From positions 1 through 64,000 of the forward strand of contig JAJYUT010000007.1 of the NCBI GenBank assembly GCA_021792365.1: a DNA stretch of 64,000 bases, in the 5' to 3' direction. The notes beneath the pieces are model-generated. The model had not been told where the DNA came from, did no database searches, and saw only the letters and a program-made list of their open reading frames with translations. The stretch comes from Pseudomonadota bacterium (lineage in GTDB: Bacteria > Pseudomonadota > Alphaproteobacteria > Dongiales > Dongiaceae). Both the position numbers and the translations under genes were made by a program. This document shows, piece by piece, positions 2,320-23,981 of the stretch. Position 1 is the stretch's first letter, and each line of letters begins with the position of its first letter.

Positions 2320-2329
2320 GGGTTCCTGA

Positions 2330-4796: not shown

Positions 4797-5990
4797 ATGC
4801 GGAAAGACATCAACCGGCGCATCAGCGACTACGTCGATTCACATGCCGACGACCTGACCGCATTCCTGCAGCAGGTGGTCCGCTCCAAGTCGCTCTGGGG
4901 CGATGTTGCTGAACTGGGCAAGCTGGCGGGTATGATTCATCGACGCCTCAACGACCATGGTGTGCGGGCGGAGCTGCAGGATTCCGGGACTCCCGGCGCG
5001 CCGAATGTGCTTGGCCGGATCGGCGACGCGAGCACAAGCCGGCGGTTGCTGTTCTGCGGCCATTTCGACGTCTATCCGCCATCCGACGCCTGGAGCTTCG
5101 ATCCGTGGTCCGCACCGATTCGCGGGGACAAGCTCCACGGGCCGGGTTCCACCGACATGAAGGGCGGGACCACCGCAATGCTGATGGCGTCAACGGTGCT
5201 AGCCGCGCTCGGGGAGCCGAAAGGCGGCGAGATGATCGTGCTTCCGATCCCCAATCATTTCGAGGGCGGCGAAGGGACGCGCCGCGCGCTGGATGCCGGA
5301 TTGACGGCGGAGGCTGGCATTGTGTGCGAACCGACGGATCTCGATGTCTGCGCGGCCCAGCGCGGCATCCTCTACGCCGACATCACGATCAAGGGCGTCG
5401 GCGCGCATACGACCTTTGAGCAGGTTGGCGTCAACGCCATTGAGCCGATCATACCGATCATCCAGGCGCTGAAGGCTCCCGCGTTCGCCAAGCCCGGTCA
5501 CGACGAATTCGGGCCGGAGAAGATCGTCAATATTGCGCTGGTGCAAGGCGGCCTGCGGCGATGCCTGATCCCGGCACATTGCGTGCTGACGGTCGATGTG
5601 CGGTTCTCGCCCTCCACGACTGCCGCCGCTGTGCTCGAGGAGATGCGCGCCATCGTGCGCGGGGTATCGATGGGCCAAAAGTTCAATGCGCGTGTCGAGC
5701 CGCAGGAAAGCTGCGTGAAGAACCCGCGCAGCCCGATGGACTGGATTGTGCATCCGATCCGCGACCGGCTGGCTGCCGCGCATGAGGCCTTCGCGGGCGC
5801 CGCGCCGCTTGCCGCCTGCCATCCTGCCTGGCCGGACACGCCCGTGCTCAATGAGCGCGGTATCCCTTCGATAACCTATGGACCGGGTTCGAAATACTGC
5901 TATTGGGACGAGGAATATGTCCCGATCCCGCAGTATCTGCAGGCGATCAAGGTCTATGCCTCGACGGCCGCGCACTGGTTCCAAGCCTAA
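4797..5990 (+). CDS. M20 family amidohydrolase (ArgE/DapE-like), first gene of hutUCH operon
   Basis: 397 aa, with the M20 fold: metal-site motif GHFDVYP near residue 84, GSTDMKGG near 118 (bridging Asp), and CEPTDLD near 180. Family members cleave N-acyl groups from amino acids with two zinc ions. Two expected sites are altered: where most relatives have the catalytic DEE pair before a GG-GT turn, this protein reads NHFEGGEGT, and the C-terminal His of the GPG...AH motif is missing (GPGSKYCYWDEEY). It may use other ligands or a different substrate. It lies directly after the HutC-like operator and ends 1 bp before HutU, so it probably acts on the importer's substrate before the hut steps. 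That order is inference. Confidence 0.88.
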   Translation: MRKDINRRISDYVDSHADDLTAFLQQVVRSKSLWGDVAELGKLAGMIHRRLNDHGVRAELQDSGTPGAPNVLGRIGDASTSRRLLFCGHFDVYPPSDAWSFDPWSAPIRGDKLHGPGSTDMKGGTTAMLMASTVLAALGEPKGGEMIVLPIPNHFEGGEGTRRALDAGLTAEAGIVCEPTDLDVCAAQRGILYADITIKGVGAHTTFEQVGVNAIEPIIPIIQALKAPAFAKPGHDEFGPEKIVNIALVQGGLRRCLIPAHCVLTVDVRFSPSTTAAAVLEEMRAIVRGVSMGQKFNARVEPQESCVKNPRSPMDWIVHPIRDRLAAAHEAFAGAAPLAACHPAWPDTPVLNERGIPSITYGPGSKYCYWDEEYVPIPQYLQAIKVYASTAAHWFQA

Positions 5991-5991: not shown

Positions 5992-7644
5992 ATGAGGCTC
6001 GCCAATACTCCCATCGAGATCGGCCATGGCGACATCCTGCGCTGCAAGGGCTGGCGCCAGGAAGGCGTCCTGCGCATGCTGGAGAACACCCTCGCCAACG
6101 GCGAGAAGCCGCAGGAGCTGATCGTCTATGGCGGCTCGGGGCGGGTCGCCCGCAATTGGGAGTGCTATCATGCCATCGTCGATGCCCTGAAGGCGCTGGA
6201 AGCCGACGAGACGCTCGTGATCCAGTCGGGAAAGCCGGTAGCGGTGCTTCGCACCAGCCCATCGAGCCCCAAGGTGATTGCAGCGAACACCAACCTGGTC
6301 GGAAAGTGGGCCACCTGGCCGGTCTATCGCGAGCTGGAGGCGAAGGGCCTCATCATGTACGGCCAGTATACGGCCGGAACCTGGGCCTATATCGGCACTC
6401 AGGGCATTCTGCAGGGCACGTTCGAAACGTTCGCAGCAGCCGGCGCCACGTTTCCGTCCGGCGATCTAAAAGGTCGGATCGTGCTGACTGCTGGGCTTGG
6501 AGGAATGGGAGGCGCGCAACCACTCGCCGTCAAGATGGCGGGCGGGGTCTGTATCGCCGTCGAGGTGGATCCAGAACGGGCCGAGCGCCGGATCGGCATG
6601 GGATATTGCGATAGCATTGTGCGCACGGCCGAGGAGGCGCTGCGGAAGGCGCGCGCAGCCGCCGAAAGCGGCGAGACGCTGGGCATCGCGCTGATCGGCA
6701 ACGCCGCGGAAGAGTTCGAAAGGCTGCGCGCGCTCGGGCTCTCGCCCGCGGTGGTTACCGATCAGACCTCGGCGCACGACCCCCTCAATGGCTACGTGCC
6801 GGCTGGGTGCACCCTGGCGGAAGCGATTGATCTGCGGGCCCGTGACCCGCAGCGTTATGTCGCCATGAGCATGGCATCCATGGCGCGCCATGTGCGCGCG
6901 ATGCTGGCCTTCCGCGATGACGGTGCAATCGTCTTCGAATACGGGAACAACATTCGCGGCCATGCCGAGGAGACAGGCGAGGCGCGCGCATTCGAGATCC
7001 AGGGCTTCGTACCGCTGTTCATCCGGCCCAGCTTCGCGCGCGGCCGCGGCCCGTTTCGCTGGGTATGCCTGTCCGGCGCCCCGGAAGACCTGGCCGCCAC
7101 CGATGCGGCCACGCTCGCCGCTTTTCCCGACGATCCTTTGCTGAGGACCTGGATGTCCATGGCGCAGAAGCGCGTACCCATCCAGGGGCTGCCGGCGCGC
7201 TGCTGCTGGCTCGCGCTCGGAGAGCGCGACCGGCTCGGCCGCATCTTCAACGACATGGTTCGCGCCGGCCGGCTCAAGGCACCGCTGGCCCTGTCGCGCG
7301 ATCATCTCGACACTGGGTCCGTCGCACAGCCGACTCGGGAGACGGAACGCATGAAGGATGGAAGCGATGCTATCGCGGACTGGCCGTTGCTAAACGCATT
7401 GTTGAATGCGGTCAATGGCGCCGACGTGGTGACCATTCATCAGGGCGGCGGCAGCGGCATGGGAGGTTCGATCTCCGCCGGCATGACGATTGTTGCCGAC
7501 GGAACCGACGAGGCGGCGAATCGGATCGGTCGGTGCCTATTTGCCGATCCGGCGATCGGCGTGATCCGTCATGCCGACGCGGGGTACGACGAAGCGAAGG
7601 AAGCAGCAAGACGCGCGGGACTAAAACCATTGGTTGGCGTATAA
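5992..7644 (+). CDS. hutU: Urocanate hydratase-like protein
   Basis: 550 aa, the usual urocanase length. It adds water to urocanate using tightly bound NAD+ as an electrophile. Seen: YGGSGRVARNWE near residue 45, GQYTAGTWAYIG near 125, the NAD-binding GLGGMGGAQPLA near 170, DQTSAHDPLNGY near 262, EYGNNIR near 318 and the catalytic cysteine region LPARCCW near 405. Typical urocanases have GQMTAGSWIYIG and HNGGGVG-x-GYS-x-HAG; here the second reads HQGGGSGMGGSISAG, and the usual PLFC before RG-GPFRW is PSFA. These are pocket or near-pocket changes, so a modified urocanate is possible. The ATG at 5992 is one base after the M20 stop. No separate promoter is visible. Confidence 0.9.
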   Translation: MRLANTPIEIGHGDILRCKGWRQEGVLRMLENTLANGEKPQELIVYGGSGRVARNWECYHAIVDALKALEADETLVIQSGKPVAVLRTSPSSPKVIAANTNLVGKWATWPVYRELEAKGLIMYGQYTAGTWAYIGTQGILQGTFETFAAAGATFPSGDLKGRIVLTAGLGGMGGAQPLAVKMAGGVCIAVEVDPERAERRIGMGYCDSIVRTAEEALRKARAAAESGETLGIALIGNAAEEFERLRALGLSPAVVTDQTSAHDPLNGYVPAGCTLAEAIDLRARDPQRYVAMSMASMARHVRAMLAFRDDGAIVFEYGNNIRGHAEETGEARAFEIQGFVPLFIRPSFARGRGPFRWVCLSGAPEDLAATDAATLAAFPDDPLLRTWMSMAQKRVPIQGLPARCCWLALGERDRLGRIFNDMVRAGRLKAPLALSRDHLDTGSVAQPTRETERMKDGSDAIADWPLLNALLNAVNGADVVTIHQGGGSGMGGSISAGMTIVADGTDEAANRIGRCLFADPAIGVIRHADAGYDEAKEAARRAGLKPLVGV

Positions 7645-7799
7645 AGTGGCAGGTACCCTGATTCGAGTTCACCTTTTTCGGCGGCCGATATGAAGATAGC
7701 GAAAAGCCCGAGCGCCTCCCGCCCGCGCGAAAATCTTCTGACTTGGTGCGTGCCGCAGCGCCGTTTGCACGCCTCGTGAGGGACGGGAGAATCCAGATC

Positions 7800-8630
7800 G
7801 TGAGACGGTCGACCCACGTGGCGCTCAAGCCAGAGGCAGCACAACCTCTCTATCTGCAGGTCAAGCAGCTCATCCTGGACGGGATCCGTGCCGGCGAGTG
7901 GGATGACAAGCGGCTGCCGTCCGAGCAGTACCTTGTCGATCGGCTCAACGTTTCCCGCATGACAGTGCATCGCGCCCTTCGCGAACTGAAGAGTGAAGGC
8001 ATCCTGGTGCGCGTGCCTGGGCGCGGGACCTTTGTTTCTTCGGAAAAACCCCGCTCCACGCTCCTGGAAACCCAGGACATTGCGGAGGAAATCCGCAGCC
8101 GCGGCTCCGATTACCGGTGCGGCGTCAAGATCCTGGAGCCGGTCAAGGCGGATCGCGAAACCGCAGCGGCTCTTGATCTCAGACCGGGGGACACGGTCTA
8201 TCATTCCCTGATCGTGCACGAGGAAAACGGTGCGCCCCTGCAACTCGAGGAGCGCTGGATCAACCCCAGCGTGGCGCCGGGTTATATCGACCAGGATTTC
8301 ACCAGATTCACGCCGCATGCGTTCCTGACGCGAACGGCAAGCATCTCCGAGGTCGAGCATGTGCTTCATGCCATCCGGCCGGATGAGCGTGTGCAACGCT
8401 ATCTCCAGATCAGCAATGACGACCCTTGCCTCCTCCTCGTCCGGCGCACCTGGGCTGGAGCCGTGGTCGCAACGCGGAGCTTTTTCATCTACCCTGGCGA
8501 CCGCTACAGCCTGGGCGGTCGCTACCAGGTCTTCGGTGAGGCTGAGCGCCCCTTGATGGGCTCGATGCGTACCGGCCAGATATACGGCCCGAGCGGAAGC
8601 CGGCGCGGCAAGAAGCAGCCGAAGCGATGA
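7800..8630 (+). CDS. hutC: HutC-family transcriptional repressor (GntR/UTRA)
   Basis: 276 aa from the GTG at 7800, preceded by GGGAG ten bases upstream; an in-frame TTG at 7743 would add 19 residues that do not look like the family. The N-terminal winged helix reads QPLYLQVKQLIL, LPSEQYLVDRLNVSRMTVHRAL and VRVPGRGTFV. The C-terminal UTRA effector domain has SEVEHVLHAI, PCLLLVRRTW and YPGDRYSLGGRY, the HutC pattern. HutC proteins bind urocanate and release their operators. Its stop overlaps the hutH start (ATGA at 8627-8630). The shared operators at 4725 and 12661 are the likely targets. Confidence 0.92.
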   Translation: MRRSTHVALKPEAAQPLYLQVKQLILDGIRAGEWDDKRLPSEQYLVDRLNVSRMTVHRALRELKSEGILVRVPGRGTFVSSEKPRSTLLETQDIAEEIRSRGSDYRCGVKILEPVKADRETAAALDLRPGDTVYHSLIVHEENGAPLQLEERWINPSVAPGYIDQDFTRFTPHAFLTRTASISEVEHVLHAIRPDERVQRYLQISNDDPCLLLVRRTWAGAVVATRSFFIYPGDRYSLGGRYQVFGEAERPLMGSMRTGQIYGPSGSRRGKKQPKR

Positions 8631-10156
8631 TGCCTGAGATCAATATCCATCCGGGCCGCGTGACCCTGTCGGAGCTGCGCCGCATCGCGCGCTCGAATGC
8701 CTCCATCAAGCTGGACGCGGAAACCTGGTCGAACATCGAGGCCTGCCATGATGCGCTTGATCGTGCGATTGCGGAGGGGCGGACGATCTATGGCGTGAAC
8801 ACCGGATTCGGGAAGCTCGCCAGCACGCGCATAGCGCCGGCCGATCTGTTCACACTGCAGCGCAATCTGATCCGCTCCCACTGCACCGGCACCGGCCCAG
8901 AGCTCGGCGAAGAGGTCATCCGTCTCGCCCTCGCCTTGAAGGTCATTGGGCTGGCGCGCGGACACTCGGCCGTGCGGAGCGAGATCGTCCGAATGCTGAT
9001 GTCGCTGCTCCAACACCGGATGTACCCTTGTGTCCCGGCAAAGGGATCCGTCGGCGCGTCCGGAGACCTCACGCCGCTCGCGCATCTATCGGCCATTCTC
9101 ATCGGCGAGGGCGAGGCGATGCACCAGGGGCGACGTCTGCCGGCGGCCGAAGCGCTCTTGCAGGCGGGCCTCAATCCCATCGAGCTGGGACCCAAGGAGG
9201 GGCTGGCGCTTATCAACGGGACGCAGGTCTCGACCGCGCTTGCGCTCTCCGGATTATTTGCCGCCGAGGATGTGTTGGCCGCGGCCATCACCGCGGGCGC
9301 CATGTCGGTCGAGGGATCCAGGGGAAGCAGCGTGCCGTTTGACGAGCGCATCCAGGCGGTGCGCGGGCACCGGGGCCAGATCGACGTGGCGTCGGCGTTC
9401 CGGCAATTGTTCGCAGGCAGCGAGATCATCGCGGCTCACGGCAACGGCCATAGGGTGCAAGACCCTTACTCCCTGCGCTGTCAGCCGCAAGTGATGGGAG
9501 CGTGCCTCGACACGATCCGGCATGCCGCGCGGACGCTGGAGATCGAGGCGAACGCGGTATCCGACAATCCGCTCGTCTTTGCTCAGAACGGCGACGTTCT
9601 CTCAGGCGGAAACTTCCATGCCGAGCCGGTCGCCTTCGGCGCCGATTTCATCGCCATCGCGCTTGCGGAGATCGGCGCTATATCGGAGCGGCGCGTCGCA
9701 TTCCTGGTCGATACGAGCTTGAGCGGGCTGCCCGCTTTTCTTGTGAAATCAAGTGGACTGAATTCGGGCTTCATGGTTGCTCAGATCATGGCCGCTGCGC
9801 TGGCTTCGGAAAACAAGTCGCTGGCTCATCCGGCGAGTGTCGACAGCATTCCGACCGCCGCCAACCAGGAGGACCATGTCAGCATGGCGACTTTCGGGGC
9901 ACGCCGGCTGGCGGAGATGGCGGACAACGTCCGGGGGATTGTTGCGGTCGAACTGATCGCAGCGGCACAGGCGATCGACTTCCAGGCGCCCAAAATGCCA
10001 TCGAAGATGCTGGCCGATGCGCACGCCCTCGTGCGCAGCAAGGTTGCGCATTACGGCGAGGACCGGCGCTTCGCGGAGGACATTCAAGCCACCAAGGAAC
10101 TGATCGCGGCGGGCGCCTTCAACCGCTTCGTGCCGATCGCCCCCAGCCTGGGCTAG
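8627..10156 (+). CDS. hutH: Histidine ammonia-lyase
   Basis: 509 aa, full length. It removes ammonia from histidine to give urocanate through an MIO group formed by the Ala-Ser-Gly triad at about residues 144-146 (GSVGASGDLTPLAHL). Other active-site elements are intact: YGVNTGFG near 52, LQRNLIRSH near 82, NGTQVSTALAL near 197, QDPYSLR near 280, GGNFHAEPVAF near 330 and NQEDHVSM near 412. The intact glutamate of the last motif argues for an alpha-amino acid substrate rather than a trimethylated betaine. It overlaps hutC by 4 bp and meets the convergent kinase-like gene with a 4-bp overlap at 10153-10156. No hutU copy follows it. Confidence 0.95.
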   Translation: MMPEINIHPGRVTLSELRRIARSNASIKLDAETWSNIEACHDALDRAIAEGRTIYGVNTGFGKLASTRIAPADLFTLQRNLIRSHCTGTGPELGEEVIRLALALKVIGLARGHSAVRSEIVRMLMSLLQHRMYPCVPAKGSVGASGDLTPLAHLSAILIGEGEAMHQGRRLPAAEALLQAGLNPIELGPKEGLALINGTQVSTALALSGLFAAEDVLAAAITAGAMSVEGSRGSSVPFDERIQAVRGHRGQIDVASAFRQLFAGSEIIAAHGNGHRVQDPYSLRCQPQVMGACLDTIRHAARTLEIEANAVSDNPLVFAQNGDVLSGGNFHAEPVAFGADFIAIALAEIGAISERRVAFLVDTSLSGLPAFLVKSSGLNSGFMVAQIMAAALASENKSLAHPASVDSIPTAANQEDHVSMATFGARRLAEMADNVRGIVAVELIAAAQAIDFQAPKMPSKMLADAHALVRSKVAHYGEDRRFAEDIQATKELIAAGAFNRFVPIAPSLG

Positions 10157-11454
10157 AACGCGCTGCCATCGAGCAGGGCCACGAATGCGTCGTCGCCGGT
10201 TGCCGGCTCGCTCCCGCTCATGACGGAGATCGCGAACGACAGCGCCGACAAGGCGGGCGAGCGGCCGGGCGTGGCGCCGTGCGCAGCGCCGGCGCTGAGA
10301 TTCATCACCAGCGTAGGGCAGCAGAAGAGCGCGCATCGAACGATGCGCCGCCAATCGTCCGGCAGGAGGTGGAGTCGGTACAGCTCCGCCAGCAGCGGGC
10401 GCCAAATCAAGTCCCTCTTCAGCTCCAGGAACTCAGCCCGCAGAGGGGACAGGGCCCAGTCGTGCTGCAGCTCGATCCAGCCGTTCCGGATCACGAGATC
10501 GCTCTCGAAGCGCGTGTCCGCCTCAGCCGGGTGGTAGAGCCAGAACGGATGGGCGAAGATGTTGTGGAAGGTCGCCTTCACGTCGGCCAGCAAGGCCGGC
10601 ACGTGCCGCCCTGCGAAGGCTGGATCGAACAGAACAAGCCGTGCCGCCTTGGCGCCTTGTTCGATCCAGACGTTGGCGTTGTGGGCATCACCATGCGCGA
10701 CTACTGCTCCGCTTGACGCGAGATTGGCCGGCCGCAGCCTTGCAAGGCCCTCCTGGAACAGCTCGCCGAGACAGTGCCTGTACTCGATGCCGTTGATGCG
10801 CCAGCGGAGGCGGGCAAAGTCCTTCCACAGCACCGTGACGCCGGAAAGGATCACGGGCTTGCCGGCATAGAAGCGCTCTACCCGGCCGCCAAGGCTTGTG
10901 TCGTTGGGCGGCGTCACTAGCCGGTGGTGGAACAGCTGATGGATCGGCTCAGTCTTGCACCATTCCAGTCGCGACTCATGGAGCGTGCGCAGGTAGATAT
11001 CGCCGGTGAGGGTGTCCAGCGCGCGTTGGAGCACGATCAGGTCGGTGTCGCCCTGTCTGCCGCGGCGCTCGATCTCCAGGCAGGCGTCCGCCAGCTGGCG
11101 ATCCTTCCGATAGGCGTAGAGCAGGACCTGATGACCCGGACGACGCGACATCATCGCCGGCACATCGACTGGATAGCCGGCTGACTCGAGCAGCTCTGCG
11201 CGGTAATACTCCTCGACGGTCTCGCTCTCGCCTTCTTCCTGGTGGAACTTGAAAAAGAAACGCCGGCCATCGGCGACGTCGACGACGCCGTTGAGCGAGT
11301 TGAGGCTGCTCCAGTCGGCGTTGATCGCGACCCGGACGAGAGCGAGGTCGAAGTTCTCCGCGATTAAGGCAGCGACGACCTTCTCTGCTTCGTCGCGCCT
11401 GCCGGCCGCGACCAGCCGCCGCGCGGCGGCAGTCGGCGTTTCATTCGCGTTCAT
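10153..11454 (-). CDS. Kinase-fold protein (APH/choline kinase-like), function unknown
   Basis: 433 aa from the ATG at 11454. The C-terminal half has a phosphotransferase-like catalytic core: VVAHGDAHNANVW near residue 270, matching the HGD-x-H-x-N loop, and LVLFDPAF shortly after, the D-x-D/DFG-like metal site. The N-terminal half has FFFKFHQE, a candidate nucleotide-binding lysine strand, and an ENFDLALVRVAINADWSSLN segment shared by distantly related sugar or amino-alcohol kinases. Its start overlaps the end of the HisC-like gene by 14 bp, so the two are co-translated. A small-molecule kinase working with HisC on a phosphorylated intermediate is plausible, but the substrate cannot be named. 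Confidence 0.75.
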   Translation of the reverse strand: MNANETPTAAARRLVAAGRRDEAEKVVAALIAENFDLALVRVAINADWSSLNSLNGVVDVADGRRFFFKFHQEEGESETVEEYYRAELLESAGYPVDVPAMMSRRPGHQVLLYAYRKDRQLADACLEIERRGRQGDTDLIVLQRALDTLTGDIYLRTLHESRLEWCKTEPIHQLFHHRLVTPPNDTSLGGRVERFYAGKPVILSGVTVLWKDFARLRWRINGIEYRHCLGELFQEGLARLRPANLASSGAVVAHGDAHNANVWIEQGAKAARLVLFDPAFAGRHVPALLADVKATFHNIFAHPFWLYHPAEADTRFESDLVIRNGWIELQHDWALSPLRAEFLELKRDLIWRPLLAELYRLHLLPDDWRRIVRCALFCCPTLVMNLSAGAAHGATPGRSPALSALSFAISVMSGSEPATGDDAFVALLDGSAF

Positions 11455-12625
11455 GCGGGGAGCCGTTCGGAAGCACATAGTCCAGGGCAGCGATGAAGGC
11501 GTCGTTCTCGGCTGCGGTTCCCACGGTGACGCGCATATGCGTGCCATATGCGCCGCCCCATGGCTTTACGATCACGCCCTTCGCGATCAGTCGATCGGCG
11601 ATTAGCCGTGCATTCTCTCGAACATCGAAGAACAGGAAGTTCGCTGCCGAGCGCGCCGGCGCGAACCCGCGTGCACGGAGGGCCGCCGCCAGACGCGGCA
11701 GCTCCTGCCGATTGTGCGTGACGGTTTTCGCCATATGCGCCGTATCGTTCCAGGCGGCGAGCGCTGCCACTTGTGCGAGGTGGTTCACGTTGAATGCCGT
11801 GCGCGCCAGGTCGACCTGACGTGCGATCTCCGGGCTGGAGCAGATGCCATAGCCCACGCGCAATCCCGCTAAGGCATAGGCCTTGGAAAAGGTGCGCAGC
11901 ACGATCCAGGGCGCGGACATCGCGCGCAGAATTTGCAGTGATCGGGGATAGTTCGCATCCACCACGGCATATTCGAAATACGCCTCATCCGTCACGATCA
12001 GCGTCGACGGACCGGCGAGGCGGCATATCCGTTCAAAATCCTGCCTATCAATCGCAGTGCCGGTCGGATTGTTGGGGTTGCATAGGAACAACAGCTTCGG
12101 CTTCCGACCGACCGCTTCGCAGACTGCAGATAGGTCGAGCGTCAGGTCAGGCGGGCGCGGCACATCGATCACGGTGGCGCCCATCATAGCAGCGGAATCG
12201 GCGTAGACCGAGAAGGTTGGCGAAGAGATGACGATGCGATCAGTGGGATCGAGGAACGCCCGGCTGAGCACGGACAGCAAGTCCTCGGATCCATTGCCGA
12301 AGATCAGGCAGTCCGGGTTCACACCAAGCTTGGCAGCAATGGCGGCGCGGAGCGCGGTACAATAGGAATCTGGATAGAGTGCGACATCGCCCAGCGCCGA
12401 CGCGAGCGCCGCGTGGACCGCCGGAGAAGGGCCAAGCGGGCTTTCATTGCTCGCGAGCTTCACGACATGCGCAATGCCGTAGCGCTCGCGCACCCTGTCG
12501 GCGGATAGCCCTGCATTGTACGGGGCCAGATGGGCCAGCGCGGCACGCATCGGTCCCTGGAGCGGCTCCCGCTGTTCTATGGCTGATCTCCGTCCCGGCG
12601 CGGGACGTGCCAAACGCCGTCCCAC
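11441..12625 (-). CDS. hisC: HisC-like PLP aminotransferase (class I/II)
   Basis: Up to 394 aa; the GTG at 12625 gives the longest form and the ATG at 12550 the length closest to HisC. Fold type I motifs are VVKLASNESPLGPSP near the N-terminus, CNPNNPTG, TDEAYFEY and the PLP lysine in RTFSKAYALAGLRVGYG, with NFLFFDV and the C-terminal arginine region TVGTAAEND. HisC moves an amino group between histidinol phosphate and imidazole-acetol phosphate; close relatives act on aromatic amino acids. Placement beside a kinase, HisD-like and Hut genes rather than in a his operon points to a catabolic or salvage role. It is transcribed away from hutI across the second HutC-like operator. Confidence 0.9.
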   Translation of the reverse strand: MGRRLARPAPGRRSAIEQREPLQGPMRAALAHLAPYNAGLSADRVRERYGIAHVVKLASNESPLGPSPAVHAALASALGDVALYPDSYCTALRAAIAAKLGVNPDCLIFGNGSEDLLSVLSRAFLDPTDRIVISSPTFSVYADSAAMMGATVIDVPRPPDLTLDLSAVCEAVGRKPKLLFLCNPNNPTGTAIDRQDFERICRLAGPSTLIVTDEAYFEYAVVDANYPRSLQILRAMSAPWIVLRTFSKAYALAGLRVGYGICSSPEIARQVDLARTAFNVNHLAQVAALAAWNDTAHMAKTVTHNRQELPRLAAALRARGFAPARSAANFLFFDVRENARLIADRLIAKGVIVKPWGGAYGTHMRVTVGTAAENDAFIAALDYVLPNGSPHERE

Positions 12626-12660: not shown

Positions 12661-12684
12661 TTCGTATAGAGCTGTCTATACAAA
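12661..12684. promoter_or_regulatory. Putative HutC-family operator, divergent hisC / hutI promoter
   Basis: TTCGTATA, seven bases, CTATACAAA. Its reverse complement carries the same arms and spacing as the site at 4725-4748. It lies 43 bp upstream of hutI and 36 bp upstream of the longest hisC start, so it can serve both. It is the strongest sign that the hisC-kinase and hutI-M20D units belong to the same regulon as hutUCH. Confidence 0.7.
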
Positions 12685-12727: not shown

Positions 12728-13954
12728 ATGTCGGATTGGGATCTGCTGCTGACCGATGCACGCCTCGCCACTGTCGTGAGCGATGAGCCAACCGCCATGA
12801 TCGACCGCGGCGCGCTTGCCATCGCGGATGGCCACATCGTGTGGGCCGGTCCCGCGCAAGAACTGCCCCAGGGGCGGGCACGCCGCACGATCGCGCTGGA
12901 GGGGCGGTGGGTCACGCCAGGCTTCATCGATTGCCACACGCATCTCATCTATGCCGGCAACCGGGCCAGTGAATTCGCGGAGCGGATGGCGGGCGCGAGC
13001 TACGCCGACATCGCCGCAGCTGGCGGCGGCATCAAGGCCACGGTAGCGGCCACCCGTGTAGCGTCCGAGGCGCAGTTACTGGCCAATGCTGCCTTGCGCC
13101 TCGACGCATTGCTCTCCGAAGGTGTCACGACCGTCGAGATCAAGTCCGGCTACGGCATGGATCGCGACACCGAGCTGCGTATGCTGGCTACCGCCCGGCA
13201 GCTGGGAGAGGGGAAGCCGGTCACCATCGTCACCACCTATCTCGGTGGCCACACCGTGCCGGCGGAATTCGCGGGCAACCGCGCTGGCTATGTAGAGCTG
13301 GTCTGCGGGACGATGGCGGAAGTTGCTGCCGCCCGCCTCGCCGACGCGGCGGACGTCTGCTACGACCCGATCGGCTTCGATCGGGAGGAGTGCGAGCGCA
13401 TGCTGCAGGCGGCGCGATGCGCCGGGCTGCCCGTGAAACTTCACACCGGTCAGATTGCCGCTCAAGGCGGCGGCGCGTTTGCCGCGTCGTACGGCGCCTT
13501 GTCGGCCGATCACGTCGAGTATCTGTCCGAGGACGACGTGTTGGCCATGGCCCGGTCTGGAACCGTCGCCGTACTGTTGCCGGGAGCATTCTATTATCTG
13601 CGGGAGACGACGAAGCCGCCGGTCGAGCTCCTGCGCCACCACGGCGTGCCGATTGCGGTGGCGACCGATCACAACCCCGGAAGCTCGCCGCTGCTGTCGA
13701 TCGTGCTCGCCATGAACATGGCCTCTGTGTTCTTCGGCCTGACCGCTGCTGAGACGCTGGCCGGTGTCACGCGCAACGCCGCGCGGGCGCTCGGCCTGCT
13801 GCACGATCGCGGAACGATCGAGGCCGGCAAGCGAGCAGATCTCGCAATCTGGGACATCGGTGACCTGGGCGAGCTGGCCAGCCTCATCGGTTCACGCAAA
13901 CCCTCCATGGTGATCCAGGACGGTCGATGCGTGGGAAGAAGGGCCGACACATGA
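12728..13954 (+). CDS. hutI: Imidazolonepropionase-like amidohydrolase
   Basis: 408 aa. HutI opens the imidazolone ring to give N-formiminoglutamate with one metal ion. Metal-site motifs are DCHTHLIYAGNR near residue 72, GGHTVP near 177, KLHTGQ near 240 and ATDHNPGSSP near 318. Usual HutI proteins have HAEQ or HADE at the third motif, so an acidic residue next to the metal histidine is replaced by Gly; the common FCE segment reads CYDPIGF. Fold and length are otherwise HutI-like. The stop overlaps the start of the M20D gene (ATGA at 13951-13954), implying coupled synthesis. Confidence 0.88.
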   Translation: MSDWDLLLTDARLATVVSDEPTAMIDRGALAIADGHIVWAGPAQELPQGRARRTIALEGRWVTPGFIDCHTHLIYAGNRASEFAERMAGASYADIAAAGGGIKATVAATRVASEAQLLANAALRLDALLSEGVTTVEIKSGYGMDRDTELRMLATARQLGEGKPVTIVTTYLGGHTVPAEFAGNRAGYVELVCGTMAEVAAARLADAADVCYDPIGFDREECERMLQAARCAGLPVKLHTGQIAAQGGGAFAASYGALSADHVEYLSEDDVLAMARSGTVAVLLPGAFYYLRETTKPPVELLRHHGVPIAVATDHNPGSSPLLSIVLAMNMASVFFGLTAAETLAGVTRNAARALGLLHDRGTIEAGKRADLAIWDIGDLGELASLIGSRKPSMVIQDGRCVGRRADT

Positions 13955-15129
13955 ACGACCGGAAATCGACAGTCCTGCCGACGGAGATCCGGGAGTTGTT
14001 GCCCGAGCTGATCGCGTGGCGGCGCGACTTTCACAGCCGACCGGAGATGGGATACGAGGAGCATCGAACCGCCGGGCTGGTGGCGCAGCGGCTCCGCGCC
14101 TTTGGCGTCGACGAAGTCGCGGAAGGCATCGGCCGCACCGGCGTGGTCGGAATCATCCGGAACGGAGGAGGACCGACTGTCGGACTGCGGGCAGACATGG
14201 ATGCGCTGCCGATCACCGAGGTTTCCGGCCGCCCCCATCGATCGGCGATCGACGGCATGATGCATGCTTGCGGACATGATGGCCACACCACCATGCTGCT
14301 GGGCGCAGCCTACTACCTCGCGAGGACCAGGCGTTTCTCGGGGACGGTCGTGCTGATCTTCCAGCCAGCCGAGGAAGGCAAGGCTGGCGCAAAGGCCATG
14401 CTGGACGAGGGCTTGCTGGACCGCTTTCCGTGCGACGCCATCTATGGTCTCCACAATGTTCCGGGCCTTCCGGCCGGCCAGATCGCCGTGTCTCCGGGCG
14501 CCGTAATGGCTGCAATCGACAGCTTCGAGATCAGGATCACCGGCAAGGGCGGACATGCTGCGCTTCCGCACTTGAACCGCGATCCGGTGGTGGCGGCGGC
14601 CTCGCTGATCATGTCAGCCCAGAGCGTTGTGTCGCGCAACCGCGATCCTAACCACGCCGCCGTTCTATCGGTGACACGCCTCGTCGCAGGCGAGGCCGAT
14701 AATGCGACGCCGGACACCGCGACCCTGAAGGGTAGCGTGCGCTTCCTTGAGGTGGGCGATGGCGCGCAGATCGAGGCCGATCTGGCGCGCATCGTTCGCG
14801 GAACCGCCGAGACTTTCGGCGTCCAGGCCGAACTCCTTTATACCGTGGGGCGCCCGCAAACCGTGAACCATGAGCGCGAAGCGAACGTGGCGCGGCGTGC
14901 TGCCGAGAGCCTCACATCCTGTGTCAGCGTCGCCGCGCGCCAGGTGCCGCTGCTCGCTTCGGAGGATTTCTCCTACTTCCTGCAGGCTCGTCCGGGCGCC
15001 TTCGCCTTCCTGGGCGCTGGCGAGAAGAGCCCTGCGCTACATACCGCGCACTACGATTTCAATGATGACCTGCTTGGGCCAGGTGCCGCGTTTCTCAGCC
15101 GAGTGGCCGAAGCAGAGCTGAGCCGGTAG
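13951..15129 (+). CDS. M20D amidohydrolase (hippurate/N-acyl-amino-acid hydrolase-like)
   Basis: 392 aa. Dinuclear metal hydrolase of the amidohydrolase/carboxypeptidase Ss1 type. Motifs: WRRDFHSRPEMGYEE near residue 25, GLRADMDALPI near 75, MHACGHDGHTTMLLG near 105 (metal Cys and His), IFQPAEEGKAGA near 140 (catalytic Glu pair intact), HAALPH in the dimerisation domain and the C-terminal SEDFSYF. It removes acyl groups from N-acyl amino acids. Coupling to hutI suggests it acts on the HutI product, possibly replacing HutG or HutF; this is inference. Unlike the M20 protein at 4797, all family residues look intact. Confidence 0.9.
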   Translation: MNDRKSTVLPTEIRELLPELIAWRRDFHSRPEMGYEEHRTAGLVAQRLRAFGVDEVAEGIGRTGVVGIIRNGGGPTVGLRADMDALPITEVSGRPHRSAIDGMMHACGHDGHTTMLLGAAYYLARTRRFSGTVVLIFQPAEEGKAGAKAMLDEGLLDRFPCDAIYGLHNVPGLPAGQIAVSPGAVMAAIDSFEIRITGKGGHAALPHLNRDPVVAAASLIMSAQSVVSRNRDPNHAAVLSVTRLVAGEADNATPDTATLKGSVRFLEVGDGAQIEADLARIVRGTAETFGVQAELLYTVGRPQTVNHEREANVARRAAESLTSCVSVAARQVPLLASEDFSYFLQARPGAFAFLGAGEKSPALHTAHYDFNDDLLGPGAAFLSRVAEAELSR

Positions 15130-16945: not shown

Positions 16946-17737
16946 ATGCGGTGGGTGCGATACCGGCATGGAGAAGCGGTGGGATTTGGCGTCCTCGAAG
17001 ACGACACGATCACTCCCGTCGAGGGTTCGCCGTTCGGCGAACATCGGCCGCTCTCCAGAAGGATCGCGCGCTCGGACGTGCGGTTGTTGCCGCCGGTCAT
17101 CCCCCCGACCTTCTACGCCGCAGGCCTGAACTATCTGGGGCACACCAAGGAGATGGTGGACGCGCTCGGCGCATCGGCAAGGCGCCCGGCCAAGCCTGAC
17201 ATCGGTTATCGCGCCATCAACGCGTTGATTGGGGACGGCGATTCCATCGTCGTGCCGAGTGACTCATCGGGACGCGTGCAATATGAGCCCGAGCTTGTGG
17301 TCGTGATTGGTCGGCAGGCAAAACATCTCTCCGAAGAAGATGCGCTGAGCTGCATCTTCGGCTACACCATCGGCAATGACGTGAGCGAGCGGAGCTGGCA
17401 GGCGGCGGACAAAACCCTTTGGCGCGCAAAGAACACCGACACCTTCAAGCCAATGGGGCCTTGGATCGAGACCGACGTAGATCTAGAAAGCTTGACGACT
17501 CGGGTGCGGCTCAACAGCACCGTCGTTGCGGAGTTCCGGACCAACGACATGGTCTTCGGTGTTGCCCGTTATATCAGCGCGATGACGCGCTATCTCACGC
17601 TCTATCCGGGCGATGTCATCTGGATGGGCGCGGATTCCCCGACGCGCGACATGGTTCCCGGTGATGAGATCGAGGTGGAGATCGACGGAATCGGTGTCCT
17701 GCGCAACCGCGTCATTGCAGAACCCGTGCGTGGGTGA
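16946..17737 (+). CDS. Fumarylacetoacetate hydrolase (FAH) family protein
   Basis: 263 aa. The family cleaves or isomerises 2,4-diketo acids and related acyl-pyruvates at a divalent metal. An N-terminal 60-residue cap is followed by FYAAGLNYLGHTKE, the metal Glu pair in YEPELVVVIG near residue 117, FGYTIGNDVSER, and the C-terminal GDVIWMGADSPT and VEIDGIG. It lies 25 bp after the SDR and overlaps the aconitase start (GTGA). In carboxylate pathways such enzymes release pyruvate or oxaloacetate from a keto acid; the exact substrate is unknown. Confidence 0.92.
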   Translation: MRWVRYRHGEAVGFGVLEDDTITPVEGSPFGEHRPLSRRIARSDVRLLPPVIPPTFYAAGLNYLGHTKEMVDALGASARRPAKPDIGYRAINALIGDGDSIVVPSDSSGRVQYEPELVVVIGRQAKHLSEEDALSCIFGYTIGNDVSERSWQAADKTLWRAKNTDTFKPMGPWIETDVDLESLTTRVRLNSTVVAEFRTNDMVFGVARYISAMTRYLTLYPGDVIWMGADSPTRDMVPGDEIEVEIDGIGVLRNRVIAEPVRG

Positions 17738-20403
17738 GGCCCGAGATGCTTGATCGTTCGAAGGTGATAAAGCAGGCGCCCCGGCGCATGCTGAGGCCGA
17801 ACTTGTCCTGCATCGATCTGGACGCATCGGCCCGCGCAGTCGGGCTTGAACTGAGTCGTCTGCCGCGCTCGCATCGCATTCTCCTGGAGAATGTGCTCGT
17901 CCACGAGGGGTTGACGAATGATTATGTGCCCGCGTTTCCGGCGTGGCTGCACGGCGAGGCTCGTGAGATTCCCTTCCGACCGGCGCGCATCCTCTCGCAC
18001 GATACCGCAGGCATCGCCATGCTGGCCGATCTCGCTGCCCTCCGGGACAAGATCGCTTCCGAGGGAGGAGATCCCTCGGCAGTCAATTCGGCAGTCCCGA
18101 TCGACTTGGTCGTCGACCATTCGGTGAGCGCAGACGTCGTCGCGACGCCGGATGCGATGGCGGAGAACATGCGACGTGAGTTCGAGCGCAATCGGGAGCG
18201 CTATCGATTCCTGAGATGGGCGGAAATCTCGCTGGGAAATCTGCGCATCATTCCACCTGGGAACGGCATTTGCCACCAGGTCAACATGGAGCTTCTCGCG
18301 GCCGGCATCGTCACGGCCAAGACGGACAAGAGTCTCGTCCTTGCTGATACGGTGATCGGCACCGACAGTCACACGACGATGATCAATGCCCTCGGGATCC
18401 TGGGCTGGGGTGTGGGCGGTATCGAGGCCGAGGCAGTCGCAATGGGGGAGGCGCTGATCATGGGCCTGCCGCCGGTCACTGGCTGCCGGCTCGTCGGTCG
18501 CCGCGCCCCGATGATCTCGGCTGCAGACATCGTCCTGTTCGTGGTGCAAGCGTTGCGACGGCATGGTGTCGTCGGAAAGATCGTCGAGTTCCGCGGTGAG
18601 GGGCTGGACCAGCTGAGCATGGGCGACCGGGCCGCCATGGCAAACATGGCTCCGGAATATGGCGCGACCTGCGGCTTGTTTCCCATCGACGAGGTGACGT
18701 TGCGCTACTTGCGAGAAACGGGCCGTGACGAGCAGCGGGTCAACGACGTCGCGAACCATGCAAAGGCAGTCGGGCTCTGGCGCGATGATTCACTTGCGCC
18801 GTCCTTCACCGACGAGCTCGTGATCGACCTGTCGGACATTGTGCCGATTGTGGCCGGCCCGAAGCGGCCGCAGCAGATTGCTGCGTTGCCGGATGTGCCC
18901 GCCTCGTTCAAGGCAGCATTCCCCGTCAGGAATGCCGGCGAAGAGCGTCGCGAAGAGCTGCGCGACGGCGATGTCTTGATCGCGGCGATCACAAGCTGTA
19001 CGCACACGTCCAATCCCCACCAGATGCTGGCTGCGGGCTTGCTCGCCCGGAACGCTCAAGCGGCCGGCTTGAAGCGGCAACCGTGGGTCAAGACCTCACT
19101 CTCGCCCGGCTCACGGGCGGTCGGTGACTATCTCCAGGAGAGCGGACTCCAGGCATCGCTTGATGCCCTCGGTTTCAATGTCGTCGGATATGGATGTATG
19201 ACCTGCGCCGGCAATTCGGGAGCATTGGCACCTGAGCTGTCCACGCAAATCAGAGATCGGGCGCTCAGCGTCTGCGCTGTCCTTTCCGCCAACCGTAATT
19301 TTGAAGGCCGCACCCATCCCGACATTAGCGGTTGCTATCTGGCGGCGCCCGCGCTCGTCGTCGCGTACGCGCTCGCAGGAACAATTCTGGTCGACCTGAC
19401 CGATCAGCCACTGGGCTGCGACTCAACGGGCCGGCCGATCCGACTTGTCGATATCTGGCCATCGGACGACGAGGTCGACACGTATGTGCGTCGTTACGTC
19501 ACCCCAGAAACCTACCGCCGTGCCTATGATCCCGACGCACTTGCGCGCTCAAGCTGGTCAGAGATCGTCGCGCCGATCGGTGCGCAGTTCCCTTGGGATC
19601 CGGGTTCTACGTATGTGCAAAGGCCGCCATTCTTCACATCCGAGACGCGTTCGGTCGGGATCTCCGATCTGGCAGGAGCCCGGCCGCTTGCCGTCCTGGG
19701 TGACAACATCACCACGGACCACATCTCGCCATTTGGACGCATCCTGTCCAGCTCTGCGGCCGCACGATACCTGAAACAGCACGGGGTGCCCGAGAACGAG
19801 TGGTCAAGTTACGCGGAGCGCCGAGGCAATCACGAGGTGCTGTGGCGCGGGACTTTCTCGAACCCGAAACTCCGCAATGAGCTTGCTGACGGCAAAGCGG
19901 GCGGTTTCACATCCGGCCCCGATGGTGTCCTGATGAACATCGTCGACGCGGCGGAAGCATATCGTGCCGCCGGAATTCCGACCGTCGTGTTCGCCGGCCG
20001 GGAATACGGTACCGGCTCGGCGCGCGACTGGGCGGCGAAGGGCACGCTGCTGATGGGAGTGAAGGCCGTTATCGCCGAAAGCTTCGAACGGATTCACCGC
20101 GCCAATCTCGTGGGTGTCGGCGTGGTGCCATGCCAGCTCCCGCACGGCGTGACGGTTGCGTCTCTCGGGATCAGAGGCGATACCACTGTTTCCATCGAAG
20201 GCCTCGCCGGGCTGAATGGTCCCATGGGCACTGTGCGGCTGGTACTCAGGCAGGCGGACGGCAGCACTTCGACAGTTCCCATGATCTGTCGCATAGACAC
20301 GCAGGCGGAACTAGCGCAGATCCGGGAAGGGGGCCTATTTGCGACGGCCGAGGCGGCCGCCAGGGTCACGCAAGCTGACGGCCTCTCGCCACAAGCGACT
20401 TGA
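17734..20403 (+). CDS. acnA: Aconitate hydratase A-type protein
   Basis: About 885-889 aa; the GTG at 17734 overlaps the FAH stop, and an ATG at 17746 is an alternative. Complete AcnA/IRP-type fold: LLENVLVHEG near residue 50, VPIDLVVDHSV near 125, GTDSHTTMIN near 212, EYGATCGLFPIDE near 310, iron-sulfur cysteines in SCTHTSNP near 420 and GCMTCAGNSG near 485, and the swivelling C-terminal domain with GREYGTGSARDWAAKG near 755. It interconverts citrate, cis-aconitate and isocitrate, though paralogues act on methylated substrates. The position behind an FCD operator and next to a tricarballylate-type cluster suggests a dedicated catabolic copy. The 3' end overlaps the convergent LysR gene by 38 bp. 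Confidence 0.93.
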   Translation: MRPEMLDRSKVIKQAPRRMLRPNLSCIDLDASARAVGLELSRLPRSHRILLENVLVHEGLTNDYVPAFPAWLHGEAREIPFRPARILSHDTAGIAMLADLAALRDKIASEGGDPSAVNSAVPIDLVVDHSVSADVVATPDAMAENMRREFERNRERYRFLRWAEISLGNLRIIPPGNGICHQVNMELLAAGIVTAKTDKSLVLADTVIGTDSHTTMINALGILGWGVGGIEAEAVAMGEALIMGLPPVTGCRLVGRRAPMISAADIVLFVVQALRRHGVVGKIVEFRGEGLDQLSMGDRAAMANMAPEYGATCGLFPIDEVTLRYLRETGRDEQRVNDVANHAKAVGLWRDDSLAPSFTDELVIDLSDIVPIVAGPKRPQQIAALPDVPASFKAAFPVRNAGEERREELRDGDVLIAAITSCTHTSNPHQMLAAGLLARNAQAAGLKRQPWVKTSLSPGSRAVGDYLQESGLQASLDALGFNVVGYGCMTCAGNSGALAPELSTQIRDRALSVCAVLSANRNFEGRTHPDISGCYLAAPALVVAYALAGTILVDLTDQPLGCDSTGRPIRLVDIWPSDDEVDTYVRRYVTPETYRRAYDPDALARSSWSEIVAPIGAQFPWDPGSTYVQRPPFFTSETRSVGISDLAGARPLAVLGDNITTDHISPFGRILSSSAAARYLKQHGVPENEWSSYAERRGNHEVLWRGTFSNPKLRNELADGKAGGFTSGPDGVLMNIVDAAEAYRAAGIPTVVFAGREYGTGSARDWAAKGTLLMGVKAVIAESFERIHRANLVGVGVVPCQLPHGVTVASLGIRGDTTVSIEGLAGLNGPMGTVRLVLRQADGSTSTVPMICRIDTQAELAQIREGGLFATAEAAARVTQADGLSPQAT

Positions 20404-21268
20404 TGCCCGCAATGAAATTCTTGACGGCAGGCGCGCGTTCGTCGCGCCGATAGGAGAGAGAGATACGTGCCTCCCTCTGCAGGTTAATGTCGCGATAGCG
20501 CACGCCCGGCATCTGAATTCTCGAAAACGAGGCCGGCACCGCCGCAAGCCCGATCCCCGCGCTGACCATGGTGACGATCGTCAGGTAATCCGTCGCGCGG
20601 CTGGCGATGCGCGGTGCGAAGCCGCCTTGTTCGGCGATGGCCGTCACGTAGCCCACAAATGCCAGTTCGGCCTCCACGGAAGGCGCTATGAACGCCTCAT
20701 TGGCGAGGTCGACGCATTCCAGCTTCTTGACGCGTGCCAGCGGGTGTTTGTCCGGTAGCGCGACCACCACCGGCTGCCTGAATACCGGAATTCCGGTCAG
20801 ACCAAGCGGGTAACGGTCCGGTGGTCGCAAGAATCCGACGTCTATACGACGCTCGGCCAGCGCGGTCAGTTGCTGCGGCGTATCCAGCTTGTGCAAGCGA
20901 AGTTCTACCAGCGGATGTTGCTTGTGGTACTCGGCGAGGCTGTGGGACACGATGCCGCTGCACGCGGACGAGGTCATGTATCCAATCTCGACCCGCCCAA
21001 GATCGCCGCGTGCCGCCTGCCGTCCGACGAGTTCAGTATGCTCGGCTTGGCGTACCGTCTTGCGCGCCTCTTCCAGGAAGCGACGACCGGCGTCAGTCAA
21101 CTCCACCGAGCGTTTAGTCCTATTGAGGAGGCGGATTCCGATCTCCGTCTCCAGCGAGCGGATCTGCTGTGTCAAGGAAGGCGGAGTTATGTTCAGCCGC
21201 TCGGCGGCCCGTGCAAAGTGCAGTTCCTCGGCCACGGCTATAAAATAGCGCAGATGCCTCAGCTCCAT
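20366..21268 (-). CDS. LysR-family transcriptional regulator
   Basis: 300 aa from the ATG at 21268. The N-terminal winged helix reads LRYFIAVAEELHFARAAERLNITPPSLTQQI in successive parts (residues 4-34), followed by the linker helix and a two-lobed effector domain (VEIGYMTSSACSG near 95, AGIGLAAVPASF near 240). LysR proteins sense a pathway metabolite, often an aromatic or carboxylic acid. It is co-oriented with the TctBAC operon but separated from it by a terminator-like hairpin, so it likely has its own promoter. It may regulate that operon or the aconitase. Confidence 0.93.
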   Translation of the reverse strand: MELRHLRYFIAVAEELHFARAAERLNITPPSLTQQIRSLETEIGIRLLNRTKRSVELTDAGRRFLEEARKTVRQAEHTELVGRQAARGDLGRVEIGYMTSSACSGIVSHSLAEYHKQHPLVELRLHKLDTPQQLTALAERRIDVGFLRPPDRYPLGLTGIPVFRQPVVVALPDKHPLARVKKLECVDLANEAFIAPSVEAELAFVGYVTAIAEQGGFAPRIASRATDYLTIVTMVSAGIGLAAVPASFSRIQMPGVRYRDINLQREARISLSYRRDERAPAVKNFIAGIKSLVARGRQLA

Positions 21269-21323
21269 GCTTCCCCACGTTCCCGTGCCTGCGCATTGCA
21301 GGCTGCCCCATCTCATGTCAAAA

Positions 21324-21355
21324 GCGCGGCGAAGTCCATAAAGGCTTCGCCGCGC
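21324..21355 (-). terminator. Intrinsic terminator of the leuCD-tcuA-tctBAC operon
   Basis: An 11-bp perfect inverted repeat (GCGCGGCGAAG at 21324-21334 with its complement at 21345-21355) around a 10-nt loop. On the minus strand it is followed by TTTTGA, giving stem plus U-run about 30 bp after the TctC stop. Confidence 0.75.
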
Positions 21356-21383
21356 CTCGAGGCGTAGGGAACCGGAACGATGC

Positions 21384-22361
21384 TCAGGTGCGCGCCTTGA
21401 TTTCCTCGATGATTGGGGTCCAGTTCTCCTTCGCCCGTTCCGTCCACGCCTGGGTGTCTGCGCTGCTTTGGAACCAGACCGGCAAGCCCGCGACTTGCGT
21501 TGCCTGCTTGTATACGTCTGTGTCGCAGGCTTGGCGTACCGCTGCCTCGATCTCACCGACGATTCCTGGATCGGTGTCCTTGGGAACGTGGAGCATGATT
21601 GGCGTGAACAGCAGCGGTGTTTCCAGACCCTGTTCCGCCATCGTCGGCACGTCGGACAGGAATGGATCGCGTGCGTCGGAGATGACGCCGAGCGATCGGA
21701 CCTGCTCCTCGAAACCGGTCAGGTTCTGCGTTCCGAATACCGAGAACTCCACCTCGCCGTTCATCAGGGCATTCCGCGCATCAGGGGCTCCCTGGAACGG
21801 AACGTCCCTGGTCGGCAGCTCGTAGTTGGTCAGCAGTGCTTGGCCGGCAATGTGATGAATGCTTCCTCGACCCGTATGTGACCACAGAACAGGCTTGGAT
21901 GACGACTCAACGGCTGTCATCCATTCCTGCATGTTGGCGTAGGGTGCATCCTTGTTGACGACGATACAGGAGGCGTATCGGCCGATCGTGGCGACCGGCT
22001 TCATGTCAACCGCCAGGTCGGGGCCATTTCCGTCCCACACCTGCTTGATGACCGCCGTTCCGGCCGAGGTGAGGCTGAGCGTGTAGCCGTCCGCCGGGCT
22101 CGCCATGACCTGTTCCATTGCAAGCACGCCATTTCCGCCTGGCCGGTTCACCACGACGACGGCCTGGTTGTTCAGGAAAGAAGGCAGTGATGCGGCGATC
22201 GCCCGGGCGTACGTATCGGTACCCCCTCCCGGCGGTTGCCCGACGATGATCTCGAGCGCTTTTGATGGGAATTCGTCGGCCCACCCCGACCGAGCAAGCA
22301 GCAAAGTTGTGCCCGCTCCGGCTGCTCCCGCCAAAAAGGCCCTACGACCTGTCCGAATCAT
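21384..22361 (-). CDS. tctC: Tripartite tricarboxylate transporter substrate-binding protein (TctC/Bug)
   Basis: 325 aa from the ATG at 22361, with GAGGAGG upstream. The signal is twin-arginine-like (TGRRAFLAGAAGAG) with cleavage near WADEF. The Bug fold shows IIVGQPPGGGTDTYAR near residue 40, VVNRPGGNG near 72 and the ligand loop TSAG near 102, ending with a C-terminal helix. Bug proteins bind carboxylates by wrapping a water-mediated carboxylate loop. It is the last gene of the operon and is followed by a clear terminator. The co-operonic flavoprotein and LeuCD-like hydro-lyase suggest a di- or tricarboxylate ligand. Confidence 0.92.
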   Translation of the reverse strand: MIRTGRRAFLAGAAGAGTTLLLARSGWADEFPSKALEIIVGQPPGGGTDTYARAIAASLPSFLNNQAVVVVNRPGGNGVLAMEQVMASPADGYTLSLTSAGTAVIKQVWDGNGPDLAVDMKPVATIGRYASCIVVNKDAPYANMQEWMTAVESSSKPVLWSHTGRGSIHHIAGQALLTNYELPTRDVPFQGAPDARNALMNGEVEFSVFGTQNLTGFEEQVRSLGVISDARDPFLSDVPTMAEQGLETPLLFTPIMLHVPKDTDPGIVGEIEAAVRQACDTDVYKQATQVAGLPVWFQSSADTQAWTERAKENWTPIIEEIKART

Positions 22362-22450
22362 GAGTTCCTCCTCTTGTTCTGGAGCCGCTCCGATGGCTGC
22401 TCCTTCTCTTGCACGTTGTTTCGGTTCGCCACGCGGCGTACGATGACCCC

Positions 22451-23968
22451 TCACGTCTGATCCGCCTCCTGGACCAGCGCGGCGCCAGATCTGAATCGCA
22501 GAACGGTGCGCACCAGCACGACCAGCACCATCGCCACGCAAACCAGCATCAGAACGGCGGAGACGGGGCGCTCGAGGAAGATGCCGACGCCGTCACCCAG
22601 GATCAGCGACTGCCGTAATGAACGCTCAAAGATTCCGCCAAGAACGTAAGCGAGGACCATTGGTGCCGGATCGAAGCCGCAGCGACGGAGCAGGAACCCC
22701 ACGACGCCGAAGAGCAGGGTCATCCAGACGTCCTCGATCTGATTGTCGATCGTGTAGGCGCCAACAACGACAAACAGCATGATGAGAGGGACGAGCAGGG
22801 AAGAAGGCACTTTCAGGAGCCGCACGAATATCGAGATAAGCGGCACGTTAAGCACGATCAGGATCAAGTTGGAGATCAACATGCTCGCGATCACGCCCCA
22901 GAATACGTCCGGGTTGCGCGTGATGAGCTGCGGTCCAACCGCCACGCCGTGGATCATCAACGCGCCCATGATGACGCCCATCGTCGGGCTGGACGGGAGT
23001 CCGAGCGTCAGCATCGGAGCAAAGGCTGCTTGCGACCCAGCGTTGTTCGCAGTCTCCGGGCCCGCGACGCCTTCGATCGCGCCTCGCCCGAATTCCGCCG
23101 GTCGGCGGGAGAGCGCTTTCTCGATCGTGTAGGCCACGAAAGAAACCAGAGACATGCCGGCGCCGGGCAAGAGACCGAGGAGGAATCCGATCACCGATCC
23201 GCGGCCAATTGCCGGTGCGCTGCGGCGCCACTCGGCCCGGCTCGGGAGAAGCTCCCGGACCTTGAGCTTTTCGTATTGGAGTTTCTGCGTTTCATTGCGC
23301 CCGAGCGCGAGGGAGAGAAGCTCCGCCACTCCGAATAGGCCAATGGCGAGCGGCACGATTCCGATACCGTCGTAGAGGAAGGTGAAGCCGAACGTGAATC
23401 GCTGCTCTCCGGAGATCGGATCCGTGCCGACGGTCGCCAGCATCAGCCCCGCGAAAGCCATGATCAGGGACCGGATCGTGCCGCTGGTCCCCACCTGGGT
23501 AACCAGCAACAGTCCCGCCAATACCAGCATGGCGTATTCCGGTGGCCCGAAGCCGCGCGTGAGCTGCGGGATGGCCGGAGCCAGCAGCAGAAGCCCGATG
23601 GTCGCGAGTATCCCCCCGATGAACGAACCGAACGCAGCGATACCGAGGGCCGCTCCGGCGCGCCCGTTCTTCGCCATCTGGTGCCCATCGAGGCACGTGA
23701 CAACAGAGGCGGATTCACCGGGGACGTTGACCAAGATCGAGGTGATCGATCCGCCATACATTGCGCCCAGATAGATCCCGCACAGCATGATGATCGCCGA
23801 GGCGGGCGCCAGCTGAAACGTTACGGGCATCAGAATCGAGATCGTGGCGACGGGGCCTAGACCCGGCAGAACGCCGATGGCGGTTCCGATGGCCGCGCCG
23901 ATCAGCGCCATGCCCAGGTTGACGGGCATGGTCGCGACGTCGAGGCCAAGGATTAGGTTCTCGAACAT
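22451..23968 (-). CDS. tctA: Tripartite tricarboxylate transporter large permease (TctA)
   Basis: 505 aa with about twelve hydrophobic segments. Family hallmarks are GVLPGLGPVATISILMP near residue 32, MYGGSITSILVNVPGE near 70, LLPGAGMSLVSF near 265 and EGVAGPETANNA near 295. It is the translocating subunit, driven by a cation gradient. The start at 23968 lies 14 bp after the TctB stop. No truncation is seen. Confidence 0.94.
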   Translation of the reverse strand: MFENLILGLDVATMPVNLGMALIGAAIGTAIGVLPGLGPVATISILMPVTFQLAPASAIIMLCGIYLGAMYGGSITSILVNVPGESASVVTCLDGHQMAKNGRAGAALGIAAFGSFIGGILATIGLLLLAPAIPQLTRGFGPPEYAMLVLAGLLLVTQVGTSGTIRSLIMAFAGLMLATVGTDPISGEQRFTFGFTFLYDGIGIVPLAIGLFGVAELLSLALGRNETQKLQYEKLKVRELLPSRAEWRRSAPAIGRGSVIGFLLGLLPGAGMSLVSFVAYTIEKALSRRPAEFGRGAIEGVAGPETANNAGSQAAFAPMLTLGLPSSPTMGVIMGALMIHGVAVGPQLITRNPDVFWGVIASMLISNLILIVLNVPLISIFVRLLKVPSSLLVPLIMLFVVVGAYTIDNQIEDVWMTLLFGVVGFLLRRCGFDPAPMVLAYVLGGIFERSLRQSLILGDGVGIFLERPVSAVLMLVCVAMVLVVLVRTVLRFRSGAALVQEADQT

Positions 23969-23981
23969 CGCGTCCTCGCGG

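Follow-up and report, generated by a model that had tools for sequence, protein, structure and literature searches.

An intact M20D amidohydrolase encoded in a second, variant hut-like gene cluster of a Dongiaceae bacterium

The known repertoire of the M20D amidohydrolases consists of N-acyl-amino-acid hydrolases or carboxydipeptidases (PMC11511702). The M20D protein described here is like ILR1/ILL2, YxeP, HipO, BcepM20D and Corynebacterium AGA (TIGR01891) in fold family, in both domains and in all metal and catalytic residues. However, unlike these enzymes, it is encoded in a hut-like gene cluster. Variants of the hut pathway for modified substrates have been described. The thiourocanate and S-methyl-thiourocanate routes (NF058530, NF058531) have in common with this cluster HutU-family hydratases that are, or here appear to be, adapted to modified urocanates. 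The bacterial degradation of N-tau-methylhistidine (Beliaeva, Atac and Seebeck, 2022, as cited in PMC11432326) concerns a histidine with a modified ring, and a hut-like pathway for such a compound is what is proposed below. A histidine ammonia-lyase (HAL) that accepts N-tau-methylhistidine is also cited in PMC11432326.

The window is the whole stretch of DNA analysed, positions 1-64000 of contig C10 in a genome of 5.43 Mb. A PotABCD-type ABC importer, made up of two permeases, a binding protein and an ATPase, lies on the minus strand (525-4624). Diverging from it on the plus strand are an ArgE/DapE-type M20 hydrolase (4797-5990; TIGR01910, 168 bits, below the cut-off of 217.6; Pfam M20), the diverged urocanate hydratase HutU2 (5992-7644), the GntR/UTRA histidine-utilisation repressor HutC2 (7797-8630; TIGR02018, 263 bits, cut-off 220) and the histidine ammonia-lyase HutH2 (8627-10156). 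Farther along, a kinase-like ORF (10153-11454) and HisC2 of the histidinol-phosphate aminotransferase family (11441-12625; TIGR01141, 309 bits, cut-off 276.6), both on the minus strand, diverge from two plus-strand genes. These encode HutI2, a diverged imidazolonepropionase-family amidohydrolase (12728-13954; TIGR01224, 419 bits, cut-off 298), and the M20D protein of 392 amino acid residues (13951-15129). The ArgE/DapE-type gene ends 1 nt ahead of hutU2; its product has no plasmid relatives at E<1e-40 and, besides M20D, is a candidate enzyme should the cluster include a deacylation. Elsewhere in the window (17734-28012), two aconitase-family proteins flanking a TctA/TctC transporter and a TcuA-like tricarballylate dehydrogenase suggest a tricarboxylate catabolic module.

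It is important to compare this cluster with the canonical hut genes of the same genome. Contig C1 carries HutC1, HutF (688.7 bits, cut-off 637), the HutG deformylase (345.9 bits, cut-off 278.75), HutD, HutI1 and HutU1, the last two likewise above their equivalog cut-offs, and contig C28 encodes HutH1, which is canonical and has the MIO triad. Both sets have in common the HutH-HutU-HutI logic, regulation by HutC and a similar operator. However, the second cluster is without HutF, HutG and HutD, has remodelled HutU2 and HutI2 proteins, and adds the importer, two M20 hydrolases, HisC and the kinase-like gene. The assignment of M20D to a variant hut cluster is well supported. The earlier note had seen no HutG or HutF. 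This is correct for the window, where the proteins scanned yielded no HutF, HutG (FGase) or ureohydrolase, but not for the genome. Its proposal that M20D replaces HutG or HutF is rejected for ordinary histidine, since both are encoded above cut-off together with HutI1, HutU1 and HutH1. Judging from gene content, the full canonical set should allow histidine to be degraded to glutamate without M20D. The lack of HutG and HutF thus could not be read from 64 kb of DNA, as the rest of the genome had both. Because the complete canonical pathway covers ordinary histidine, the second set probably serves a histidine derivative instead.

Two further members of the aromatic-lyase family were observed in the genome. 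One, a HAL homologue that belongs to the canonical hut locus (C1:392454-394043; L095:1454-3043), scores narrowly above the hutH cut-off, has GSVGYIVHG where the MIO Ala-Ser-Gly is expected, and is preceded by a HutC-type box of its own, TGTCTATACA. A fourth member (C9:756155-757522; L108) has SVGESDL and is also without the Ala-Ser-Gly triad.

Predicted HutC-type boxes are present in both divergent promoter regions of the second cluster. The operator between hisC2 and hutI2 (12661-12684, plus strand) reads TTCGTATAGA-GCTG-TCTATACAAA, with 10-nt arms that are 90% complementary. The operator between the importer and M20-hutU2 (4725-4748, plus strand) contains TGTATATACC, a match to TGTMTATACM. 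This pattern has exactly two matches in the 64 kb, both in the divergent promoters of the cluster, and none in 100 shuffles, but it was derived from those two boxes and its count is descriptive only. The published HutC binding site is TGTA-N2-TACA (PMC12977541), from which each of the two boxes differs by one mismatch. With one mismatch allowed this site gives 3 matches in the window against 2.35 expected, so that the boxes are supported by their position and their likeness to the canonical boxes, not by their number. The core of the box at 12661-12684 is identical to the one preceding the C1 HAL homologue, and a like motif precedes hutU1 as well as that homologue and is located upstream of hutH1.

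The M20D start was claimed earlier to overlap the hutI stop, and this was confirmed. The ATG at 13951 shares the four nucleotides ATGA (13951-13954, plus strand, read directly) with the end of hutI2. The start at 13951 is putative, and an in-frame ATG upstream at 13927 would extend the overlap to 28 nt. Overlaps of 4 nt join at least three other pairs in the window, namely hutC2/hutH2 (8627-8630), FAH/acnA (17734-17737) and 33796-34716/34713-36470. Such an overlap is a common operon junction, ordinary in the window. The M20D gene is probably co-transcribed with that of the HutI homologue behind the HutC-type box.

The M20D protein scores 332.3 bits against TIGR01891 (cut-off 153.75) and exceeds the Pfam cut-offs for the Peptidase_M20 and dimerisation domains. 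The earlier statement that its metal and catalytic motifs are intact agrees with the alignment to the solved M20D enzymes ILL2, YxeP and AGA, in which the full set is kept: C107 and H109 (HACGH), E141-E142 (PAEE), H168 (GLH) and H364. The scores are below the equivalog cut-offs for DoeB2, the N-acetyl-diaminobutanoate deacetylase (350 vs 550 bits), and for the CpsA carboxypeptidase (333.5 vs 500 bits). The family-profile scans gave no match of M20D to HutG (TIGR02017/FGase) or HutF (TIGR02022), and the score of only 24.6 bits against TIGR01879 places it outside the carbamoylase branch. Homologues are widespread, occurring in 141 of 385 genomes of the class, and the best identity to any of them in the collections searched is about 50-58%. 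M20D and its nearest relatives form a clade supported at 0.998. The clade-mates have conventional residues, while T253, S262 and R301 are unique to M20D among the compared relatives; the position of Arg301 is occupied by Tyr or Phe in 30 of 30 of them, making the arginine unique among 31 sequences. Arg301 may point to a substrate that is acidic, an acyl-glutamate for instance. The neighbourhoods of the closest relatives are unrelated and have no hut genes. No other hutI locus fetched has an adjoining M20D gene, and orthologous HutI2-M20D clusters were found neither in genome contigs nor in the sets of 17, 385 and 398 genomes or the plasmids. Apart from this protein, the genome gave a single M20D-type match, with 47% identity (C28:130000-143000; L096), which lies with a class III aminotransferase, an FAD oxidoreductase and an importer of the PotABCD type.

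The three hut enzymes of the cluster differ in how far they are conserved. HutH2 scores 677 bits (cut-off 539), and its alignment to the P. putida HAL shows the MIO Ala-Ser-Gly and the His-site residues Tyr, His, Asn, Gln/Tyr/Arg, Phe and Glu to be conserved. The roles of the HAL residues that hold histidine are well established, and by its sequence HutH2 looks canonical. An ergothionase was considered and is unsupported, as the protein is a HAL with MIO and scores 578 bits to the P. putida HAL against 234 to the ergothionase chain 6s7j.

HutU2 is well above the cut-off of TIGR01228 (776 vs 375 bits). However, it has substitutions at many positions where four canonical enzymes do not vary; among the changes are YGGIG to YGGSG, GQMTAGSWIYIGS to GQYTAGTWAYIGT, and HHGGGVGMG to HQGGGSGMG. 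Close relatives were found neither in 398 genomes nor in plasmids. A thiourocanate or S-methyl-thiourocanate route is unsupported, since HutU2 is below the cut-offs of both hydratases (NF058530, 683 vs 930 bits; NF058531, 703 vs 880 bits). In addition, two of its conserved segments match the canonical solved urocanases better than the chains 7ned or 8q9u, which we take to be hydratase variants of the thiourocanate/S-methyl-thiourocanate type.

In the alignment HutI2 keeps the metal ligands of the HxH, H, D pattern (H70, H72, H239 and D314). Two residues past the metal-ligand His, however, it has Gly241 at a position that is acidic in 65 of 65 other HutI proteins (Glu in 37, Asp in 28), giving the motif HTGQ where others have H[AV][ED][QE]. 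Eight near-invariant positions are broken in HutI2, against three at most in other proteobacterial HutI; the changes are clustered as HAEQ to HTGQ, LAAH to LGGH and DVFCE to DVCYD. In the tree, HutI2 has the longest terminal branch of all proteobacterial sequences and is not sister to HutI1, and no close relatives were found in 17, 385 or 398 genomes or in plasmids. Identity of the altered residue with the Glu252 position of B. subtilis is excluded, as comparison of the HADE and HAEQ motifs sets it one residue earlier, and therefore we do not assign it a particular part in catalysis.

The kinase-like ORF contains the motif HGDxHxxN and gave no Pfam, NCBIfam or PDB match. Plasmid homologues of about 48-50% identity, annotated 'hypothetical protein' (L148:9929-11224, L149:9929-11215 and L150:11938-13227), adjoin an ABC importer and genes for hisD, SDR and ADH, to which hutC is added in Rhizobium. 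This suggests that the family, so far uncharacterised, takes part in catabolism of the histidinol type. The AlphaFold model from the single sequence (mean pLDDT 38) was unusable.

For an intact M20D protein that is probably co-transcribed with a HutI homologue, a part in the catabolism of an imidazole compound is reasonable. The reading that we favour, tentatively and with a little less than even confidence, is that M20D hydrolyses amide bonds within a second hut-like set, which is controlled by HutC and degrades a histidine derivative, and that it feeds the route as an aminoacylase or dipeptidase. The PotABCD-type importer would bring the compound in, and one or both M20 hydrolases would cut the amide bond of an N-acyl or peptide conjugate, which releases an imidazole amino acid. 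HutH2 would then remove ammonia, HutU2 would hydrate the product and HutI2 would open the ring. A derivative is favoured as the substrate because HutH2 keeps the His-site residues while HutI2 and HutU2, both without close relatives, lose invariant ones; the smaller residues in the two proteins would fit a bulkier ring. M20D is more likely to release the imidazole amino acid of a conjugate than to finish the HutI2 product, because the known M20D repertoire and the conventional clade-mates without hut context both point to an aminoacylase or dipeptidase.

This order of steps has to be weighed against the position of M20D directly after HutI2 and the replacement of Tyr or Phe by Arg301. The other M20 hydrolase, located beside the importer, could be the upstream enzyme, leaving M20D as the last step. 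HutI2 would then open the ring to give an unusual product, which could be N-(N'-methylformimidoyl)-glutamate if the pathway starts from an N-methylated histidine, and M20D would hydrolyse this product to glutamate, replacing HutF and HutG for this branch only. The ATGA overlap, the unique arginine and the HAL activity on N-tau-methylhistidine cited in PMC11432326 all agree with such a step, as does the remodelled HutI2 site, which has lost the invariant acid by the metal-ligand His, so that its product may not suit HutF or HutG. However, the position of M20D outside the carbamoylase branch, the unrelated neighbourhoods of its clade-mates and the presence of HutF and HutG in the genome make this terminal role rather unlikely. 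As the arrangement is known from one genome only, no conserved synteny backs any order of the steps.

The single occurrence also agrees with a general aminoacylase that takes part in no imidazole step, and that either lies beside hutI2 by chance or through shared regulation, or belongs with the SDR, SDR, FAH and aconitase genes that follow. The wide distribution of the homologues in the class is in line with this, and so are the 4-nt overlaps between unrelated-looking pairs such as FAH/acnA. The HutC-type box ahead of hutI2-M20D and the gap of 76 nt that separates M20D from the probable start of the gene after it speak against it, and we consider it doubtful to the same degree as the terminal role. 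Finally, HutI2, HutU2 and HutH2 are all above the canonical equivalog cut-offs, as would be expected of an ordinary redundant histidine pathway in which M20D deformylates or deiminates the usual HutI product as a back-up for HutG or HutF. This is very improbable in view of the deviation of HutI2 and HutU2 at conserved family positions and of the full canonical set in the genome.

The more interesting part of the earlier note is its hint at N-methyl-formimino compounds, because the remodelling of HutU2 and HutI2 suggests a modified substrate. In its boldest form, which we regard as unlikely, the cluster would be a hut branch that has not been described before and that serves a ring-substituted histidine, for example an N-methylhistidine supplied as a conjugate, with the acid-lacking HutI variant and M20D as a new terminal pair yielding glutamate without HutF or HutG. 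If the cluster does serve a modified histidine, it shows how the hut pathway can be duplicated and retuned for derivatives, and Gly241 of HutI2 together with the HutU2 pocket would represent a testable specificity change in two well-understood enzymes.
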